Shown here piece by piece: positions 3,627-27,176 of a stretch of 64,000 nucleotides of DNA. The DNA lies in contig NZ_JADMKB010000105.1 of the NCBI RefSeq assembly GCF_018780075.1, positions 1-64,000 of the forward strand, in the 5' to 3' direction. The first letter of the stretch is position 1; each line of letters starts with the position of its first letter. The notes under the pieces are model-generated. The model saw only the letters and a list, made by a program, of their open reading frames with translations. It had not been told where the DNA came from and made no database searches. Origin of the DNA: Hydrogenophaga sp. (GTDB lineage: Bacteria > Pseudomonadota > Gammaproteobacteria > Burkholderiales > Burkholderiaceae_C). Position numbers and translations under genes: made by a program.

Positions 3627-5261
3627 ATGTTTGATTTCATCATCGTCGGCGGCGGCTCGGCGGGCAGCGTGCTCGCGGGGCGCCTGAGCGAAGACCCGGC
3701 CGTGCGCGTGGCCCTGCTCGAAGCCGGTCCGGCGGACAACAGCGTGCTGATCCACTGCCCGGGCGGTCTGGCCGTGATGGCCAAGTACGAGCTCAACGGC
3801 TGGGGCTACAGCACCGTGCCGCAACCCGGCCTGAACGGGCGCCGGGGTTACCAGCCGCGCGGCAAGGTGCTGGGCGGCTCCAGCTCGATCAACGCCATGA
3901 TCTACGCGCGCGGCCATGCGCAGGACTACGACAGCTGGGCCGCCGAAGGCAACCCGGGTTGGTCGTTCGCCGATGTGCTGCCGTACTTCAAGCGCGCCGA
4001 ACACAACGAGCGCGGCGCGGACGCGCTGCACGGCCAGGGCGGCCCGCTCAACGTGATGGACCTGCGTTCGCCCAATCCGTTTCTGCCGTCTTTTGTGCAG
4101 GCCGGGCAGCAGGCGGGCCACCGTCACAACCCCGACTTCAACGGCCCCGAGCAGGAGGGCGTGGGCGTCTACCAGGTCACGCACAAGAACGGTGAACGCT
4201 TCAGCGCCGCCAAGGCCTACCTCACGCCGCACCTGGGGCGGCCCAACCTGCAGGTGATCACCAACGCGCTGACCACGCGGGTGCTCACCGACACGGTGGA
4301 CGGCCAGCCCCACGCGGTGGGCGTGGAATACCGGGCCGACGGCGGGCGCGGCGCGTCGCAGCGCCTGATACTCCAGCCCGGTGGCGAGGTGCTGCTGAGC
4401 GCGGGGGCCTTCGGTTCACCGCAGTTGCTCATGCTATCGGGCATCGGTCCCGCCGCGCACCTGCGCGAACACGGCATCCCGGTGGTGCGCGACCTGCCCG
4501 GCGTGGGGGAGAACCTGCACGACCACCCCGATGTGGTGATGGTGGTGAACGCGCCGAAGGTGCGCGAGCTGTTCGGCATCTCGCCGCGTGGCGTGTTGAA
4601 CATGCTCAAGGGCATCTTCGAATGGCGACGCCGCCGCAGCGGCATGCTGACCACCAACTTCGCCGAGGCGGGAGGGTTCATCAAGAGCGCGCCGGAGGAG
4701 GCCATTCCCGACCTGCAACTGCACTTCGTGGTCGGCAAGCTGGTGGACCACGGTCGCAAGACGGTGCTGGGCCACGGCTATTCGTGCCACGTGTGCCTGC
4801 TGCGCCCCCGGAGTCGGGGCACGCTGCGCCTGGCGAGCGCCGACCCGCAGGTGATGCCGCTGATCGACCCGGCGTTCCTGAAGGACCCGGATGACGTCGA
4901 GCGGCTGGTGCGCGGCTTCAAGGTGATGCGCCACCTGCTGCAGCAACCGGCGCTGGCGCGCCATGGCGGGGTGGAGTCGAAAGCCTCGGCCGGCGCGCAG
5001 AGCGACGCACAGATCGAACAGTTCGTCCGGAACCACGCCGACACGATCTACCACCCGGTGGGCACCTGCCGCATGGGCGCCGATGCGCTGGCGGTGGTGG
5101 ACGCCCGCCTGCGCGTGCACGGTGTGGCGGGGCTTCGCGTGGTCGATGCCTCGGTGATGCCCAGCGTGGTGGGCGGCAACACCAATGCGCCGGTGATCAT
5201 GATGGCGGAGAAAGCGGTCGATATGGTGCGCGGCGATCGTGCTGCAGCGGGACTGCGGTAA
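3627..5261 (+). CDS. GMC-family FAD-dependent oxidoreductase (choline/alcohol dehydrogenase-like)
   Basis: 544 residues from [20 protein letters not shown], the FAD dinucleotide-binding motif. The ATG follows ACGGAGACCCC, so the upstream in-frame Met is not used. GMC signature 1 ([17 protein letters not shown]) lies near residue 80 and signature 2 ([16 protein letters not shown]) near 265. The C-terminal region has the catalytic HPVGTCRMG histidine region and the [16 protein letters not shown]-contact segment. Members oxidise primary alcohols or choline to aldehydes at the membrane or in the cytosol. Residue pattern alone does not fix the substrate; a medium-chain alcohol dehydrogenase of the AlkJ type is plausible. 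It stands alone, followed by a dispersed repeat. Confidence 0.9.
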
Positions 5262-8632: not shown

Positions 8633-11600
8633 TTACACGCGCGGCAGCTCGATGTGGAAGGTGGCACCTTGTCCAGGTGCGCTTTCTGCGCGAATGTGCC
8701 CTCCCATGCGCTCCACCGCTTTCTGCACGAGTGCCAGCCCGATGCCGGTGCCGGGAATCTGGTCTTGCCGGTGCAGGCGCTGGAACATGCCGAAGATGCG
8801 GTCGTGGTGCTTCATGTCGAAGCCGATGCCCTGGTCGGACACGCTCAGCAGCACCCGGTCGCCGTCGGCCTGTGCCTCGATGCGGATGCGCGGCGCGGCG
8901 CCCGCCGGCGTGAACTTCAGCGCGTTGTCGATGAGGTTGCGCAGCACGATGGCCAGGCCCTTGGGATCGGCCTGCACCCGCAGCCCATCGGGTATCTGCA
9001 CCGCCAGCTGGCCCTGGCGTGCCTCGATCTCGTCCTGAAAAGGGGCCACCACTTCGCGCACACCCTCCGCCAGCGCCACAGGCGAGATCTGTTCAACCAT
9101 CTGCTGCAGGCGCGAGTAGGCCAGCAGGTCGCTGACCAGGCGCGACATGTGCAGCGTCGCACGCTGGATGCGACCCAGGTACTCCCGGCCCTGGTCGTCC
9201 AGTTGCGCGGCGTGTTCCTCCAGCAGCAGTGCGCTGAAGCCCTCGATGCCGCGCAACGGCGTGCGCAGGTCGTGCGAGGCCGAGTAGGTGAAGGACTCCA
9301 GCTCGCGGTTGACGGTCTGCAGCCGCTGCACGCTCTCGTGCAGTTGCTGCGTGCGTTCCTGCACCTTCTGTTCGAGCTGCTCGGCCAGTTCGCGCAGCTG
9401 CGCCTGGGCGCGGCTGCGCTCCTGCAGGTTGACCAGCATCTGTGCGAACAGCTTCAGCAGCGTGATCTCTTCGTCTTCGTAGGCATGGGTTCCGCGCACC
9501 GAGTCCAGGCCCACATAGCCCAGGCACGCGTCCTGGCCGATCAGGGGCAGCGTCATGAGGCTGCGGATGCCCTGAGGCATGAGGAGGTCCTTGAGCGGGC
9601 CTTCCGGCATGGACTGGACGTCGGGCTCGTACACCATGTCGCCGCGCTGGTGGGCGGCCACCCAGCCCAGGTCCCAGTCCAGGGGAAGGTTCTGCAGCCG
9701 GGCCTTTTCGGAGGTGATGCCCTCGGCGCACCACTCGTGCGTGTTGGAGTTGGTGCGGGCCTGGAAGTCGTAGTGGAACAGGTAGGCGCGGTCGGCCGAG
9801 ACGAAACGGCCCAGATCACCCAGCGCTTCCTGAATGGCCTGGTCCATCTGCTGCAGGGGCAGGTTGATGAAGCGGTTGGCCAGCCGGAACAGCAGCAGCA
9901 CGAAGTCGTTCAAGCGTTCGCGCTCGCGCTGGACCGCCTGCTGCTCGGTGGTGTCGCGCACCAGGAACATGCACTGCTCGTCGCCGGGCAGCCAGGCCAG
10001 GCGGGCGTTGAAGTGGTGGGTGCCCACCGGCAGTGCCATGCTGTAGTCCAGTTCTTGCAGACCGTCGGTGCGCGCCTTCTCCATGGCGGACCTCAGGTCG
10101 GCCACCAGCGGCGGCGGCATGACCTCGCTGATGGTGTGCCCCAGAAAGTCCTCCGGCCGGCGGTAGAGCCGCTCTTCGGAACCGGCCTGGAAGAAGACGA
10201 AGCGCTGCTGGGCGTCCACCACGAACAGCATGTCCTTGAGCACGTCGAAGACCTGCTTGAGCGTCGCGTCGCGTTCGCGCGCGGTGGCTTCGGCCTCCCG
10301 CAGATCGGTCACGTCCAGGCAGGAGCCCACGTAGCCGATGAAGCGTTGGTCGGCGTCGTACCGGGGTTTGCCCTGCTCGTGCACCCAGCGGTACTGGCCG
10401 TCGTGGCGCCGCAGGCGGTATTCCGTGCTGTAGGGTCGGCGTGCCGCGAAGCTCTCTTCGAAGATCTTCTCGCAGCGCTGCTGGTCCTGCGGGTGAAGGT
10501 CCTCCAGCCAGTGGGTGTCGCACTCGGTGGCGAGGTCGCGCCCGGTGAAGTCGAGCCAGGCCTGGTTGAGCCAGTCCGGGTGCTTCTGGGCGTCCACGGT
10601 CCAGGCCAGGGCGGCCGAGGCATTGGCCACCGTGTCCAGGTGCTTCAGGGTCTGCCGCTGCGCTTCCTCCAGGGCCTTGCGATCGGTGATGTCGAAGGTG
10701 GTGCCGGCCATGTAGGTCACACGGCCGCTGGCATCGCGCAGGCCGTTGCACCGGGTGTCGAACCAGTGGTACTGGCCGTTTGCATCGCGGGCGCGGTACT
10801 CGATGCGAAAGTCGGCCCCGCCCGCATAGAAGCGGTCCAGGGCCTCGCGCATCCGCGGCCGGTCTTCCGGGTGCAGCAGGTGCTTGAGGGTCTGCGCCAC
10901 GCGGTCGGTCGACGGGGACGGGTGGCCCAGGGAAACGAAAAACTCGTCACTGGGCTGGGCCAAACCCTGCCCGAAGTCCCACTCCCACACCTGGCCATGT
11001 GAGGCCGCCAGCCGGAAGCGCTGCTCGCTCCGCGCCAGTGCCGGCTGGTCGAGCTCCAGCTGGGTCACGTCGCGGAACATCAGCAACAGGCGGTGTTCTC
11101 CGTTCTGCTCCACCCGTTCTGCGCTGTAGCGCACGTGGATGACCTGCCCATCCGGACGGCTGCTGCTGCCCGCGACATCGCGCACCTTCTCGCCACGCTC
11201 CAGTGCTTCCAGCAGTTGCTGACGGGTGGCGGCCGATCGCCAGAGACCCAGGCCGGTGGCGGGCTGGCCGAGCAACTGATCGCGGGCGCGGCCGAACAGG
11301 GCACAGAACGCATCGTTGACCAGCAGCAGGCGGGCGCTGTCCCATTCGCTGAGCGACATGGCCTCCGGTGCCGACTGAAAGACGGTTTCAAAGAGCTGCT
11401 GGGCCGCGTGCCGCTGGGCCTCGGCCTCAACGCGTTCGGTGATGTCGCGCGTGATGACCAGGACGGTGGGCGCCTCGCCAGCGGGTGCGGCTTCCAGGCG
11501 GGCCTGTGCCTCCCAGTGCCGCACACCACCCGGCCCGCTGTGACTGAAGTACAGGGTCTCCGCCAGTCCGGTGGCGAGCACGCGTTGCAGGCAGGCGGCC

Positions 11601-21548: not shown

Positions 21549-22664
21549 ATGAAGCCCCTCCAGTTGTTCGACCCCGACTCCAGCACTTTCACCTATGTGC
21601 TGTTCGACCAGTCCACCCGCGACGCGCTGATCATCGATCCGGTGGACGAGCAGATCGAACGCGACCTGGCGACGCTGCGCGAGTACGGCCTGAAGCTCGT
21701 GTGGACGGTGGAGACCCATGCCCACGCCGACCACATCACCAGCGCCGGCAAGCTCGCCGAGCTGACCGGCGCCAGGACCGCCGCGCCGGTCGGTTGCGGC
21801 ATCGGCACGGCGGGGGTGCAACTGCGGCACGCCGACACCCTGTCGTTCGGTGGCGAGACGCTGAGCGCCCTGCACACGCCGGGACACACCGCCGGCAGCA
21901 TGAGCTTCGTGTGGCGTGAGCACGTGTTCACCGGCGACACGCTGCTCATCAACGGGTGCGGCCGCACCGACTTCCAGTCCGGCAACGCCGCCGACCTTTA
22001 CCGCAGTCTCACGCAGGTGCTGTTTGCGCTGCCCGACACGACCACCGTCTGGCCGGGTCACGACTACCAGGGCCGCAGCCACTCGACCATCGGTCAGGAG
22101 AAGGCCGGCAATCCGCGGGTGGCGGGCAAGAGCGAGGCCGAGTTCGTGGCCCTCATGGACGCCCTGAACCTGCCCAAGCCCAGGCGCATCGACGAGGCCG
22201 TGCCGGCCAACCTCACCTCCGGCATCCGCCACGACATGGACGGTGCGCTGCTCATGCAGCCGCGACCCACCCAGAGCGGCTACGCCGGCGATGTGTCGCC
22301 GCAGCTGGCCTGGCAGTGGGCGCAGGCGGGCCGGGCGGTGCTGGTGGACGTGCGCACCGATGCCGAGCGTGAATGGGTGGGTTTTGTGCCGGGCGCCGTG
22401 CCGGTGGCCTGGAAGCAGTGGCCGGGCATGGCCATGAACCCGCAGTTCGACGACGCCGTGCGGCAGGCCGCGGTCGGCGGGAAGCCGCTGGTGCTGTTGT
22501 GCCGCAGCGGCGTGCGCTCCATCGCCGCCGCCAAGCGGGCCACCGAGCTTGGCCTGGAGGCCTACAACATCCTGGAAGGTTTCGAGGGCGATCCGGACGC
22601 CCAGGCTCAGCGGGGGCGAAAGGGCGGCTGGCGCCACCACGGTTTGCCCTGGCGCCAGAATTGA
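21549..22664 (+). CDS. Metallo-beta-lactamase/rhodanese fusion, persulfide dioxygenase
   Basis: 371 residues. The N-terminal metallo-beta-lactamase domain has THAHADHITSAGKL near residue 57, TPGHTAGSMSF, TGDTLLINGCGRTDFQSG and WPGHDYQG, the mononuclear-iron pattern of ETHE1-type persulfide dioxygenases. The C-terminal rhodanese domain (about 265-365) has the active-site loop LLCRSGVRS with its catalytic Cys. The fusion oxidises glutathione or other persulfides to sulfite and can transfer sulfane sulfur, completing sulfide detoxification. It is cotranscribed with the CstR-like regulator. No sulfide:quinone reductase is in the window. Confidence 0.92.
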   Translation: MKPLQLFDPDSSTFTYVLFDQSTRDALIIDPVDEQIERDLATLREYGLKLVWTVETHAHADHITSAGKLAELTGARTAAPVGCGIGTAGVQLRHADTLSFGGETLSALHTPGHTAGSMSFVWREHVFTGDTLLINGCGRTDFQSGNAADLYRSLTQVLFALPDTTTVWPGHDYQGRSHSTIGQEKAGNPRVAGKSEAEFVALMDALNLPKPRRIDEAVPANLTSGIRHDMDGALLMQPRPTQSGYAGDVSPQLAWQWAQAGRAVLVDVRTDAEREWVGFVPGAVPVAWKQWPGMAMNPQFDDAVRQAAVGGKPLVLLCRSGVRSIAAAKRATELGLEAYNILEGFEGDPDAQAQRGRKGGWRHHGLPWRQN

Positions 22665-22780: not shown

Positions 22781-22798
22781 CCTGTCAACCTTGACAGG
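22781..22798. promoter_or_regulatory. lux-box-like palindrome at the cqsA promoter
   Basis: CCTGTCAACCTTGACAGG is a perfect 8+2+8 inverted repeat and fits the CTG-N10-CAG form of LuxR-type binding sites. The same arms (CTGTCAA/TTGACAG) recur at 26515-26530. The right arm contains a consensus -35 hexamer. Confidence 0.75.
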
Positions 22799-22819: not shown

Positions 22820-22860
22820 TTTCTTTTTTCAATGGGTTCTTCTTTACTCAGGAGAATCCC

Positions 22861-24108
22861 ATGGAACTGCTCGAAACCACCGCCCGTTCAACACCCCGTT
22901 CGGCACCCCGTTTGAGTGCGGCACTGGAGGCCCGCGTGGAGCGGGACTTTGCGCCGCGCTGGAACGGTCTCTGGAGCGGACGTTTCGCCGTCCAAGGCGC
23001 GCGGCCCGGGCCCAATTCGGTGCGGTTGGACGGCAACGACTACCTGGCCGTCTCGGGTCACCCGGACATTGTTCGCGCGCAGGTCGAGGCCCTGACCCGC
23101 TGCGGCAATTTCGCGGTGCAATCGGGCGTGTTCATGCACGATGAGCACCCGACCCGCAACCTGGAGCTGAAGCTGGCCGACTGGGTGGGCATGGACGACG
23201 GATTCGTCTGTCAATCGGGTTACGCGGCCAATGTCGGTCTGATCCAGTCGGTCGCGAACCAGGACACGCCGGTGTACCTGGACGGACAGGCCCACGCCTC
23301 GCTGTGGGAGGGGGCGCACGCGGCCCGCGCCCCGGCGCACGTGTTCCGCCACAACGACCCGCAGCACCTGGACAAGCTCATGTCGCGCGCGGGGCCGGGC
23401 CTGGTGGCGGTGGACTCGGTCTACAGCACCACGGGCGCCCTGTGTCCCCTGGAGGAGATCCTGGAGGTGGTCGAGCGGCACGGTTCCATGATCCTGGTCG
23501 ACGAATCGCATTCGCTGGGCACACACGGTCCGCGCGGCGCGGGTTTGTGCGCGCAGCTGGGCGTGACCGATCGCGTGCACTTCATCTCGGCCAGCCTGGC
23601 CAAGGCACTGGCCGGCCGTGCGGGCTTCTTCAGCGCCCCCGCGAAGCTGCGGTACCACATCCTCACGTCGAGCTTTCCCAACATCTTCAGCTCCTGTGTG
23701 CTGCCGCACGAGGCGGTCGGTCTCGGCGCGACCGTGGACGTGCTGCAGCAGGCCGATGCCGCGCGGGCCACGCTGCAGCGGCACACCCGCCGCATGCGCC
23801 AGTCGCTCACCGACATGGGCTACCCGATCCATCAGGGGACCGAACAGATCATTGCGCTGGAGGCCGGGCTCGAACCGGCCACCATCCGCCTGCGCGACGA
23901 ACTGGATGCCCGGGGTGTGCACACCGCGTTTTTTGGCGCGCCCGCGACCAGCCGCAACCGGTCGCTGGCCAGGATGACCCTGCACGCCGCGCTGACCGAG
24001 GCCGAGTTGAGCCACGTCGAGGCGGCCGCGCAGGAAGTGGCGGCGCTGGTGAAGCCCTGGGACTGGCCCGTGGCGCGCCGGAACCGGGGCGCGACTCAGC
24101 TGTCGTGA
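22861..24108 (+). CDS. cqsA: Alpha-hydroxyketone autoinducer synthase (CqsA/LqsA family)
   Basis: 415 residues, a PLP-dependent alpha-oxoamine synthase. It has RLDGNDYLAVSGHP near residue 55, the cofactor aspartate/histidine segment ILVDESHSLGTHGPRGAG near 211, and the Schiff-base lysine in SASLAKALAGRAGF at about 248. The fold is shared with BioF and KBL, but the FMHDEHPTRNLELKLADW and DGQAHASLWEGAH segments fit the CqsA/LqsA branch. No biotin or threonine genes are near; instead a six-helix sensor kinase and an LqsR-like regulator follow. CqsA joins an acyl-CoA to S-adenosylmethionine or an amino acid to give an aminoketone that becomes CAI-1/LAI-1-type signal. Its 3' end overlaps the convergent regulator gene by 13 bases. 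Confidence 0.88.
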   Translation: MELLETTARSTPRSAPRLSAALEARVERDFAPRWNGLWSGRFAVQGARPGPNSVRLDGNDYLAVSGHPDIVRAQVEALTRCGNFAVQSGVFMHDEHPTRNLELKLADWVGMDDGFVCQSGYAANVGLIQSVANQDTPVYLDGQAHASLWEGAHAARAPAHVFRHNDPQHLDKLMSRAGPGLVAVDSVYSTTGALCPLEEILEVVERHGSMILVDESHSLGTHGPRGAGLCAQLGVTDRVHFISASLAKALAGRAGFFSAPAKLRYHILTSSFPNIFSSCVLPHEAVGLGATVDVLQQADAARATLQRHTRRMRQSLTDMGYPIHQGTEQIIALEAGLEPATIRLRDELDARGVHTAFFGAPATSRNRSLARMTLHAALTEAELSHVEAAAQEVAALVKPWDWPVARRNRGATQLS

Positions 24109-25082
24109 ATCGCGCGGGAGCCCTGCACGTCCAGGAAGTTGTGGTACGGGTACACCGGGTGCGGTGTGTCGGCATCGTCCAGGCTGAACACCGCGCCGCT
24201 CAGCAGGCTCTCGTTGCCGATGGGAAAGGCGGGGGCGGTGCGGATCGGACCGCGCAGGCCCAGCTGCTGGTGCAGCTCAACCGCGGGCAGGAGGGCGCCG
24301 CTTTGAATGGCGCGCACGGTGTCGGACCCCAGCCCCGCCGAGCGGGCCAGCTCGGCGACGTCGTTGAGACCGGCGGCGGGTTCGAGCTGCAGCCAGTGGC
24401 AGCGACCCGCCGCGTCCAGCCCGAACATGCCAAACGGCTCACCCAGCACCACGTACTCGATCCAGTGCTTCAGTGCATAGGCCTGCAGCGCCTCGGCCAG
24501 TGAAGGCACCTGCAGCAGCGACTGTTGCGCCGGTTGCAGCGCGGTGCGCCACAGCGTGTTGAGCCGGGGGTGGGCCGCGTGGGCCAGCCGGACCAGGGTG
24601 GTCAGCAGGCGCCCGGTGATGTCGGCCGTCTGTTTCGGGATGAACTGGTCGATCAAACCCTGGTTGAAGGCCTGGATGGCGATCTGCTCGTCGGCCTGAC
24701 CGGTCAGCAGGATGCGCGAGCCCGGCCAGTCCAGCAGGGTCTTGAGCACCTTGAGGCCGTCGGTTCCGGGCATGGCGTAGTCGACCACGCAGGTGTGCGC
24801 CAGCTGGTAGCGCGCCGGGTGGTTGCCCCAGTAGCTCATCACCTGCGGCAGCAGCGGATGTCCCTGGCGCCAGCGCTCGATCATCAGCAAATGCAGCGCC
24901 GCGTCGGCTTCCCACTTGGCGGGTTCATCGCGCATGCGGGCCAGGAATGCCGCAGGGCGGGAGTACAGCTCCACCTGCATGTGGGTCGGCACGACCATGC
25001 CGAGCATCTCCAGGTAGTCGATGTCGTCATCGAGAAAGAGGATGCAGCCCGAGCGGTGGTACAGGGGAAGTTTGAGGGCCAT
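24096..25082 (-). CDS. LqsR-like response regulator with extended receiver and no DNA-binding domain
   Basis: 328 residues. The acidic pair is in ILFLDDDIDYLEML (18-20), the phospho-acceptor aspartate is about D101 in CVVDYAMPGTDGL, the conserved Thr is about T127 in ILLTGQADEQ, and the Lys about K150 in QFIPKQ. In a plain receiver the aspartate is near 55, so some 45 residues (WEADAALHLLMIERWRQGHP region) are inserted before it. The remaining 165 residues match no output domain I recognise and have no helix-turn-helix. It follows the kinase gene by three bases on the same strand. By analogy with LqsR, JqsR and relatives it relays the kinase state, but its target is unknown. Confidence 0.82.
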   Translation of the reverse strand: MALKLPLYHRSGCILFLDDDIDYLEMLGMVVPTHMQVELYSRPAAFLARMRDEPAKWEADAALHLLMIERWRQGHPLLPQVMSYWGNHPARYQLAHTCVVDYAMPGTDGLKVLKTLLDWPGSRILLTGQADEQIAIQAFNQGLIDQFIPKQTADITGRLLTTLVRLAHAAHPRLNTLWRTALQPAQQSLLQVPSLAEALQAYALKHWIEYVVLGEPFGMFGLDAAGRCHWLQLEPAAGLNDVAELARSAGLGSDTVRAIQSGALLPAVELHQQLGLRGPIRTAPAFPIGNESLLSGAVFSLDDADTPHPVYPYHNFLDVQGSRAIHDS

Positions 25083-25085
25083 GGA

Positions 25086-26417
25086 TCAAGCGGTATCGGG
25101 TGACGGTTCGGCGGACGTGGGGCGGTGGATCGGCAGGTCGATCGTGAAGGTGGCGCCATGCGGTGGTTCGGAGTGCAGGCTCAGCACCCCGTCTGCGGCT
25201 TCCACCACGTTCTTGCAAAAGGTCAGGCCCAGTCCGTTGCCCACGGTGTTTTGCAGCGAGAAGAAGGGTTCGAAGACCCGCTGCTGTTTGGCCAGGGGAA
25301 TGCCCATGCCTTTGTCGGCCACCGTGAAACGTCCTCGGCCCCCGGACACCTCCACCGTGATGTGCAGCGCGCCGGTTTGCAATGCCTCGCTGGACGAGGC
25401 CAGTGAATGCAGTGCATTTTTGATCAGATTCACCAGCACCTGGGCAAACTGGGCCCGCGAGCCCAGGAAACAAAAATCTTCCTTGAGGTTCAGGGTCACG
25501 CACTCGCGCTCCCCCGGTGAGCGGTAAGGGTACTGCGTCACCACGTCCTGAACCAATTCAAACCCCATGATTCGCGTGGTCGGGCGGGGCAGGCGCAGCA
25601 ACTGGGCATTGGAAATCTGGGTGTCGATCTGCCGGTTCATGCTGCGCACCATGCTCTGCAAACGGACCGACAGGTCTTCGAGCTTCTTGCGTTTGCCCTC
25701 GGGCATGTCGGCCTGGGCCAGACCGCGCAGCACGTCGCCCATCAGGTTCACCGACGCCAGCGGCGTGCGCAACTCGTGCGCCATGACGCCCATGGTGCTC
25801 AGTGTGTTGATGAGCCGCGCCCGGCGCAGGTTGGCGCCCGACATGCCCAGCATGATGCTCATGACCCAGGCGAAAGACAGCACGGCGAGGTTGTCCAGGT
25901 CCAGACCCAGCCACGCCTGGTCGGTCCGGGTGAGTTCAAACAGCACCGCCGCCAGGGCAAACCCGGTCACCGAGCCCAGCGTGGCCAGGCGCCAGTCGGT
26001 GATGTGGTAGTAGATCAGGAGCATCGAGCAGAGGCTGGCCAGCCAGACCTTGTTGCCCTCGTTCATCAGGTACATCCAGCCAAAGTACAGCGGCAATTGT
26101 GTCCAGAAGATCAGGCCGAACACCCAGATGCTCGTGGTGGCGGTCAGGTCGCGGTTCACCCGCTTGAGCAGCAGCAGCAGGCCCATGACGGCCAGTGCAA
26201 CACGCACGCTGAAAACCTCGTAGGGCTGCGGCAGCAAGCGCCCCCACAGCCACGCGAACAGGAAATGGCCGCCGAACGTGAACAGACCCAGCCACTGAGT
26301 CCGCACCGTGGATGGGTGCAAAATAGGTTCCAGAGGAGCGTGGACGACTTCGTCCACCACCCAGCGCCAGAACCTTGCACTGGCGTTGTGAACCCACAGG
26401 CGGTCCAGCGGCAACAT
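25086..26417 (-). CDS. Six-transmembrane sensor histidine kinase (LqsS/CqsS-like)
   Basis: 443 residues, start supported by AAAGGA. Six hydrophobic helices fall between about residues 40 and 197 (for example LGLFTFGGHFLFAWLWG, VALAVMGLLLLLKRV, LASLCSMLLIYYHI), the topology of alpha-hydroxyketone receptors CqsS and LqsS. The phospho-acceptor is about H214 in MGVMAHELRTPLASV. The ATPase domain shows NLIKNALHSLASS, VADKGMGIP and GNGLGLTFCKNVVEA. There is no receiver domain, unlike the hybrid CqsS, which matches LqsS. It is the first gene of a kinase-regulator operon, divergent from luxR across a region that holds the second lux-box-like palindrome. Predicted role: detecting the signal made by CqsA. 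Confidence 0.87.
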   Translation of the reverse strand: MLPLDRLWVHNASARFWRWVVDEVVHAPLEPILHPSTVRTQWLGLFTFGGHFLFAWLWGRLLPQPYEVFSVRVALAVMGLLLLLKRVNRDLTATTSIWVFGLIFWTQLPLYFGWMYLMNEGNKVWLASLCSMLLIYYHITDWRLATLGSVTGFALAAVLFELTRTDQAWLGLDLDNLAVLSFAWVMSIMLGMSGANLRRARLINTLSTMGVMAHELRTPLASVNLMGDVLRGLAQADMPEGKRKKLEDLSVRLQSMVRSMNRQIDTQISNAQLLRLPRPTTRIMGFELVQDVVTQYPYRSPGERECVTLNLKEDFCFLGSRAQFAQVLVNLIKNALHSLASSSEALQTGALHITVEVSGGRGRFTVADKGMGIPLAKQQRVFEPFFSLQNTVGNGLGLTFCKNVVEAADGVLSLHSEPPHGATFTIDLPIHRPTSAEPSPDTA

Positions 26418-26504
26418 GTATTCCTTTCAGCTACGGTTCAAACCTTTCGCCAGAGCCTCTGGGACGAAGTGGTGCATTGTCCCTTTTGCGGGGCGTCCCC
26501 GGTC

Positions 26505-27176
26505 ATGACCTTGCCTGTCAATTTTGACAGCGTGGGGGTCGACGCCATTCTGGCCGATTGGGTTCGTGCGCTGCAGGACCACGGCGTGGAAGCGGTCCTG
26601 GTGCTCGGTCCGAATCCGCTGGGCGGGCGCGATGAGCGCGAGGTGCTGGCGGTGCACCCGCCGCGCCTGCTCGGTCCGGCACAGGCGCTGGCCGAGAGCC
26701 CCGACTTTGGCGCCAGCTGGCGCGACAGCGATGCGCCCCTGGTGGCCTGGCAGGACATTTCCAAATCGGCCTACGCCGAACAGGCCGGGCGCTGGCGCCG
26801 CCTGTGGCTGGCGCACGGCCACCAGACGCTGGTGCGCGTGGCGTTCAGCCTGCCGGCGGGCCGGGCGTTCGAGTGCTTCATGTTCAGCCCGCGGGCGTTT
26901 GCGGACCGCTCGGAAGCGGCCTCGCTGGCCTGGTCGGCGTTCAACATCTGGCCGATGCTGCGGCGCGCGATCGCCGAGCAGCGCGTGACCCTGAGCCCGC
27001 GCGAGCAGGAGAGCCTGAACCTCGCGTTCGAAGGGTTGACCGCCCGCGAAACGGCGCTGCGCATGGATTGTTCCGAGCGCACGGTCAATTACCACCTGGC
27101 CAACGCCATGGCCAAGCTCAAGACCGACAACAAGCTCTCGGCGGTGCAGCGGGCCTGCTGGATCGGTTTGATTTGA
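26505..27176 (+). CDS. LuxR-type transcriptional regulator
   Basis: About 223 residues. The C-terminal 65 residues form a clear LuxR/FixJ helix-turn-helix (LSPREQESLNLAFEGLTARE, SERTVNYHLANAMAKL). The N-terminal 150 residues are a possible autoinducer-binding-like fold (GHQTLVRVAFSLPAGRAFE), but I cannot place the Trp/Tyr/Asp set of AHL receptors with confidence, and no luxI is present. The start is uncertain: ATG 26505 has no Shine-Dalgarno site and the palindrome 26514-26531 would lie inside its first codons; GTG 26532 or GTG 26469 are alternatives. It is the only DNA-binding protein of the locus and so the best candidate for the output regulator and for binding both palindromes. Confidence 0.8.
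   Translation: MTLPVNFDSVGVDAILADWVRALQDHGVEAVLVLGPNPLGGRDEREVLAVHPPRLLGPAQALAESPDFGASWRDSDAPLVAWQDISKSAYAEQAGRWRRLWLAHGHQTLVRVAFSLPAGRAFECFMFSPRAFADRSEAASLAWSAFNIWPMLRRAIAEQRVTLSPREQESLNLAFEGLTARETALRMDCSERTVNYHLANAMAKLKTDNKLSAVQRACWIGLI
26514..26531. promoter_or_regulatory. Second lux-box-like palindrome between the kinase operon and luxR
   Basis: CTGTCAATTTTGACAG (26515-26530) shares both 7-base arms with the box at the cqsA promoter and differs only in the two central bases. It lies about 97 bases ahead of the kinase start and at the 5' end of luxR. Confidence 0.7.

Follow-up and report, generated by a model that had tools for sequence, protein, structure and literature searches.

The stretch of DNA analyzed here (the window) is a 64-kb piece of Hydrogenophaga sp. 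sequence, contig C191 of assembly G000. It carries a cqsA gene for an alpha-hydroxyketone autoinducer synthase, genes for an LqsR-type response regulator and a sensor histidine kinase that together form an operon, and, divergent from that operon, the gene of a luxR-type solo regulator (Table 1). The response regulator had only one strong PDB match, 6sy9, which we take to be Legionella LqsR. A metallo-beta-lactamase/rhodanese fusion gene (21549-22664) lies 5' of cqsA on the same strand, a position that is kept in most Hydrogenophaga loci.

Table 1. Features of the cqsA-luxR locus, with positions in the window.
Feature	Position	Strand	Basis or remark
Lux-type box 5' of cqsA, CCTGTCAACCTTGACAGG	22781..22798	.	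perfect dyad
TTCAAT, conserved -10-like element of cqsA	22828..22833	+	fixed offset from box
Predicted leader hairpin pairing cqsA Shine-Dalgarno region and AUG	22832..22862	+	arm-swap test, covariation
cqsA, alpha-hydroxyketone autoinducer synthase	22861..24108	+	NCBIfam NF005526, 514 bits (cut-off 428)
LqsR-type response regulator	24096..25082	-	phmmer to 6sy9 'Response regulator', E=1.2e-14; receiver domain part
Sensor histidine kinase, CqsS/LqsS position	25086..26417	-	HisKA, HATPase_c
GACAAT, conserved -10-like element between luxR and kinase	26476..26481	-	ACAAT offsets
luxR-type solo regulator, 223 aa	26505..27176	+	GerE domain, fold matches
Second lux-type box, CTGTCAATTTTGACAG, in luxR codons 4-9	26515..26530	.	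+10 in 80/80 loci

The LuxR-type protein (LuxR below) ends in a GerE helix-turn-helix (PF00196, 4.5e-14) that is nearest to those of RhlR and QscR. The autoinducer-binding domain PF03472 was matched in none of 38 orthologues at E values up to 5, so the ligand domain has diverged beyond detection by that profile. An AlphaFold model (mean pLDDT 84) gave TraR, QscR, RhlR, SdiA, CviR, and LasR as its first 33 PDB fold matches, with E values down to 2e-9. From the model, a quorum-sensing LuxR fold is likely, with an uncertain domain arrangement because full-length TM-scores were only 0.3-0.53. The nearest named relative is from Hydrogenophaga sp. A37 (98% identity). A LuxI-type AHL synthase (PF00765 above cut-off) was found in 0 of 12 genomes with luxR, including G000.

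Two boxes and their conservation

A first-pass annotation of this DNA had pointed to two matching palindromes that share 7-base arms and a CTG-N10-CAG form, and both are intact in the window as CCTGTCAACCTTGACAGG and CTGTCAATTTTGACAG. Each has the form of a lux box, a dyad of about 16-20 bp with CTG-N10-CAG at a target promoter. With up to three mismatches permitted, a scan of the window returned just these two sites (22781-22798 and 26515-26530), each of them perfect. The annotation had also proposed a genome-wide search for the perfect motif CTGTCAANNTTGACAG. Run as a pattern search over the 5.39-Mb assembly, it found two sites about 3.7 kb apart (22782-22797 and 26515-26530) and no others, where by our own arithmetic about 0.02 would be expected by chance for 14 fixed bases. 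The second box had been placed between the kinase operon and luxR; it actually starts 10 bases past the A of the luxR ATG (26505). Relatives have the luxR start at the equivalent position, and several have an in-frame stop just 5' of that ATG.

Both boxes recur in orthologous loci, at both genes, among family genomes and in 80 named related loci from Hydrogenophaga, Polaromonas, Ramlibacter, and Caenimonas, a set that partially overlaps with the family genomes. All of the named loci have the luxR box at position +10 relative to the luxR start (44 perfect, 29 with one mismatch, and seven with two), and a cqsA box is present at all 67 readable promoters, mostly extended towards CCCTGTCARNNYTGACAGGG. 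Loci with luxR and the response regulator and without cqsA (in G056, G163, and G273) keep the luxR-side box, with two mismatches in G273. One relative, G100, has a degraded luxR-side box and no adjacent ACAAT element; its cqsA box is intact.

Reduced forms of the locus were also seen. Box-like palindromes lie 3' of the response-regulator gene at two loci that have no cqsA there, L071 of G163 (9710-9725) and L072 of G273 (9294-9309), roughly at the place expected of a cqsA promoter. At L066-L068 (G254, G176, and G070), where cqsA and the kinase are absent and only the divergent response regulator and luxR are left, two of the three loci retain CTGTCAGAACTGCCAG in the first luxR codons.

The cqsA palindrome might instead serve as an intrinsic terminator for the gene that precedes cqsA, a reading that we find barely credible. 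A third palindrome of the same assembly does resemble a terminator (C12:4388-4405). However, at least six T in the next 10 bases follow only 3 of the 67 cqsA boxes, and the arms keep their sequence from genus to genus, as expected of a protein-binding site, and turn up again within luxR. The third palindrome itself, the extended match CCTGTCAGATCTGACAGG (L077), sits within a longer hairpin followed by T and is probably a terminator; as a terminator-like sequence, it was rejected as a regulon site.

The position of the second box within luxR raises another possibility, that the match is a mere by-product of a conserved N-terminal peptide. The box encodes P-V-N-F-D-S (codons 4-9), and P4, N6, F7, and D8 are invariant among 38 close relatives. 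However, the codons themselves are nearly fixed. The proline in the box is CCT in 29 of 30 luxR genes, compared with about 9% at other prolines; the phenylalanine is TTT in 26 of 27, and the aspartate and serine are GAC and AGY in 30 of 30 each. At conserved residues elsewhere in luxR, by contrast, synonyms are freely used. Divergent orthologues change the peptide to PVNLDS, PVKSDS, or, in genus g71, PVRTAS, and yet retain most of the box. The LuxR model is also of low confidence at residues 1-8, which are probably disordered. Because the codons are near-fixed and the box survives under a changed peptide, the luxR-side box, as judged from these comparisons, is selected as DNA and not as protein alone, and the by-product explanation is extremely unlikely. 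This makes it a clear case of a putative operator that is preserved within the first codons of the regulator itself.

The candidate regulator of the boxes

The annotation had proposed that one regulator, most likely the adjacent LuxR-type protein, acts at both boxes. To judge from the genome comparisons, this is supported, as the boxes track the presence of luxR. Of 301 family genomes, 36 have LuxR, and 22 of these carry the exact extended box CCTGTCANNNNTGACAGG, at 52 sites in all; among the 265 genomes without LuxR, eight carry it, at nine sites. With sites at the cqs/luxR locus left out, it is still found in 17 of the 36. The corresponding Fisher p values of 1e-17 and 2e-12 ignore kinship between the genomes and are only indicative. 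Box presence follows luxR, not the response regulator or cqsA, and the box is missing where luxR is missing. For example, no box was found at the cqsA loci without luxR in three family genomes (G010, G094, and G130), or at 14 cqsA loci (one partial) from other families of the order. LuxR itself was not found outside the family.

The LqsR-type response regulator is the other obvious candidate. In the loci examined, its gene is a neighbor of luxR, and the kinase would be expected to signal through it, so that it, and not LuxR, might bind the boxes. Against this, none of the eight genomes that carry the response regulator but lack LuxR has the extended box. Three of these eight (G244, G177, and, at one of its loci, G255) have regulators that are 48-50% identical and occupy the same position in the chromosome, with the MBL-rhodanese gene on one side and coaX on the other; luxR and the box are both absent there. 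In addition, the box has the lux-box form, and the helix-turn-helix of LuxR belongs to the matching subfamily. LuxR is favored as the binder because the box is concentrated in luxR-positive genomes and absent from these eight, and we regard binding by the response regulator as very unlikely.

No box targets outside the cqs locus were found in G000. In G048 and G165, the extended boxes number five or six. Relatives from three genera (G043, G048, and G106; loci L130, L123, and L119) have additional extended boxes 5' of ShlB/FhaC two-partner secretion genes, and further boxes lie 5' of genes for a TonB-type receptor, an M16 peptidase, and, more distantly, a GH5 enzyme. From the genes that they precede, these extra boxes look like a regulon of exported proteins.

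Promoter layout and the cqsA leader

Counted from the first base of the box, a nearly invariant TTCAAT, or a variant that differs at one base, starts at 46-47 in 63 of 67 cqsA loci. The annotation had taken the box to hold the -35 hexamer, which does not agree with this geometry; TTCAAT begins 31-32 bases after the TTGACA of the box, too far for such a pair, and no conserved element stands at the normal 17-base spacing at cqsA promoters. On the kinase side, the offset of ACAAT from the luxR box is 49-50 in 53 of 80 loci; in 14 of 80 it is 56-60, longer by about one helical turn. Around the other box sites of relatives, -10-like hexamers are enriched at an offset of 46-48 (13 against a mean of 2.9); this offset was fixed beforehand from cqsA and was also the best of 60 windows. 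That box and hexamer are similarly spaced at cqsA, before the kinase, and at the other box promoters of relatives counts in favor of the boxes as operators of LuxR.

A typical lux box is centered near -42.5 and overlaps the -35. With TTCAAT as the -10, the cqsA box would be centered at about -51; with TTCAAT across the start site, it would be centered at -42.5. We favor the layout in which TTCAAT and the kinase-side element are -10 elements, with the box centered near -51 and no conserved -35, an arrangement that fits activation. The annotation had noted that a -35 hexamer within the cqsA box would fit repression as well as activation; as an argument for repression, this hexamer is not supported. 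Read on the + strand as ATTGTC, the GACAAT element could also serve luxR.

This double reading bears on the possibility that LuxR, bound at both boxes, acts as a repressor of cqsA and of luxR itself, keeping the signal in homeostasis. On the luxR side, the box comes after the start codon, so that a protein bound to it would stand in the way of transcription, and the upstream ATTGTC can be read as a luxR -10. The cqsA side speaks for the opposite sign; its box lies 5' of a -10-like element at fixed spacing and without a conserved -35, which is the layout of an activated promoter, and other box promoters have this spacing too. We consider repression at both genes unlikely.

Directly 3' of the conserved TTCAAT, the cqsA leader is predicted to form a hairpin in which the Shine-Dalgarno region and the AUG are paired, in the window and in the leaders of loci L005-L032 and L162-L241. 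When hairpin arms were exchanged between genomes, own arms paired at -12.65 kcal/mol and swapped arms at -7.66 (0 of 20000 permutations), and 63 distinct named leaders repeated the result (-13.20 for own against -9.79 for swapped arms, 0 of 20000). In an alignment of 26 leaders, 9 of 11 hairpin pairs have changed on both sides, with a covariation score of 0.357 compared with 0.212 for shuffled alignments (0 of 500); slid structures scored no higher than 0.246. An Rfam search of the leader gave no credible match. A luxR leader hairpin was unsupported in the same arm test (own -5.93, cross -5.58, reached by 520 of 5000 permutations). Hairpin strength was equal for upstream genes on the + and - strands, a comparison that addressed whether the hairpin silences read-through from the preceding gene.

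Such a covarying hairpin would place signal synthesis under translational control. It is not easily reconciled with TTCAAT as the -10, since the start site would then fall in the left arm; either transcription would start further upstream, or the full hairpin would form only in longer transcripts.

A proposed circuit and its relation to known systems

The boxes are conserved at the DNA level, linked to luxR, and set at a fixed spacing from -10-like elements. On this footing, we put the probability at roughly three in four that the LuxR-type solo binds both boxes as operators, probably with positive feedback on cqsA together with control of the kinase operon, of its own gene, or of both. At the cqsA box, LuxR would probably activate the synthase gene from a promoter without a recognizable -35, which would put signal production in a positive feedback loop. 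Either luxR or the kinase/response-regulator operon could be the target of the luxR-side box; LuxR bound there would probably switch on the divergent operon with its LqsR-type regulator, limit its own transcription, or do both. Limiting of luxR would act from inside the coding region, at codons 4-9. LuxR in turn may receive its input as a signal or through a phosphorelay.

A more tentative and rather unlikely version is that this LuxR-fold protein, with its diverged ligand domain, senses the hydroxyketone or a precursor directly, in parallel to the membrane kinase, and drives the synthase from a lux-type box, with the hairpin adding translational control. If true, it would be, to our knowledge, the first LuxR-type receptor of that signal class.

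Hydroxyketone systems are kinase/response-regulator circuits, and by its synthase, kinase, and response regulator this locus is predicted to belong to the Lqs/Jqs kind, with production and sensing of a hydroxyketone. Like the Lqs, Cqs, and Jqs systems of Legionella, Vibrio, and Janthinobacterium (PMC3376566, PMC3566124), it clusters a CqsA/LqsA-type synthase with a kinase and an LqsR-type regulator; unlike them, it adds a LuxR-type regulator and the boxes. The passages on Lqs/Jqs-type loci in the literature searched name no DNA-binding output together with its site. The closest precedent in those passages is the JAI-1 motif of Janthinobacterium and Duganella, a TTGA-N6/7-TCAA palindrome 5' of jqsA and of signal-regulated genes, for which the passages on the motif name no DNA-binding protein (PMC5080296). 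Both are palindromes 5' of a hydroxyketone synthase gene, the JAI-1 motif being linked to the signal, but the box sequence here differs. The JAI-1 motif was not found near cqsA; its single copy in the window lies far away, at position 4596.

With LuxI/LuxR feedback, the locus shares a LuxR-fold regulator, a CTG-N10-CAG palindrome 5' of the synthase gene, and likely positive feedback. It differs in that the synthase is CqsA, which makes a hydroxyketone, and not LuxI, in that the ligand domain is unrecognized by Pfam, and in that the putative second operator lies within the coding sequence of the regulator. The two kinds of system also meet elsewhere in the family. In G036 and G133, an LqsR-type regulator (32% identical) adjoins a LuxI/LuxR pair whose PF00765 and PF03472 domains are normal (L261, 4106-7139, and L262, 3673-6690, respectively), so in this family LqsR-type regulators accompany AHL synthases as well as hydroxyketone synthases. 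In G036, CTATCAACCTTGATAG lies 5' of luxI and CTATCGACCTTGATAG after luxR.

LuxR solos (PMC4338825, PMC10134790) likewise have a quorum-sensing LuxR fold and no LuxI in the genome. The LuxR described here differs in being genetically tied to another synthase and its promoter, and its sequence gives no match to PF03472, which is part of the usual definition of solos in those sources. A literature search beyond whose reach most subscription journals lay found no description of this LuxR or of the box. The locus offers a specific candidate regulator, putative operators, and a candidate regulon in a family that is common in fresh water and soil. The proposed circuit would join two textbook kinds of quorum sensing, the LuxR-type and the hydroxyketone.
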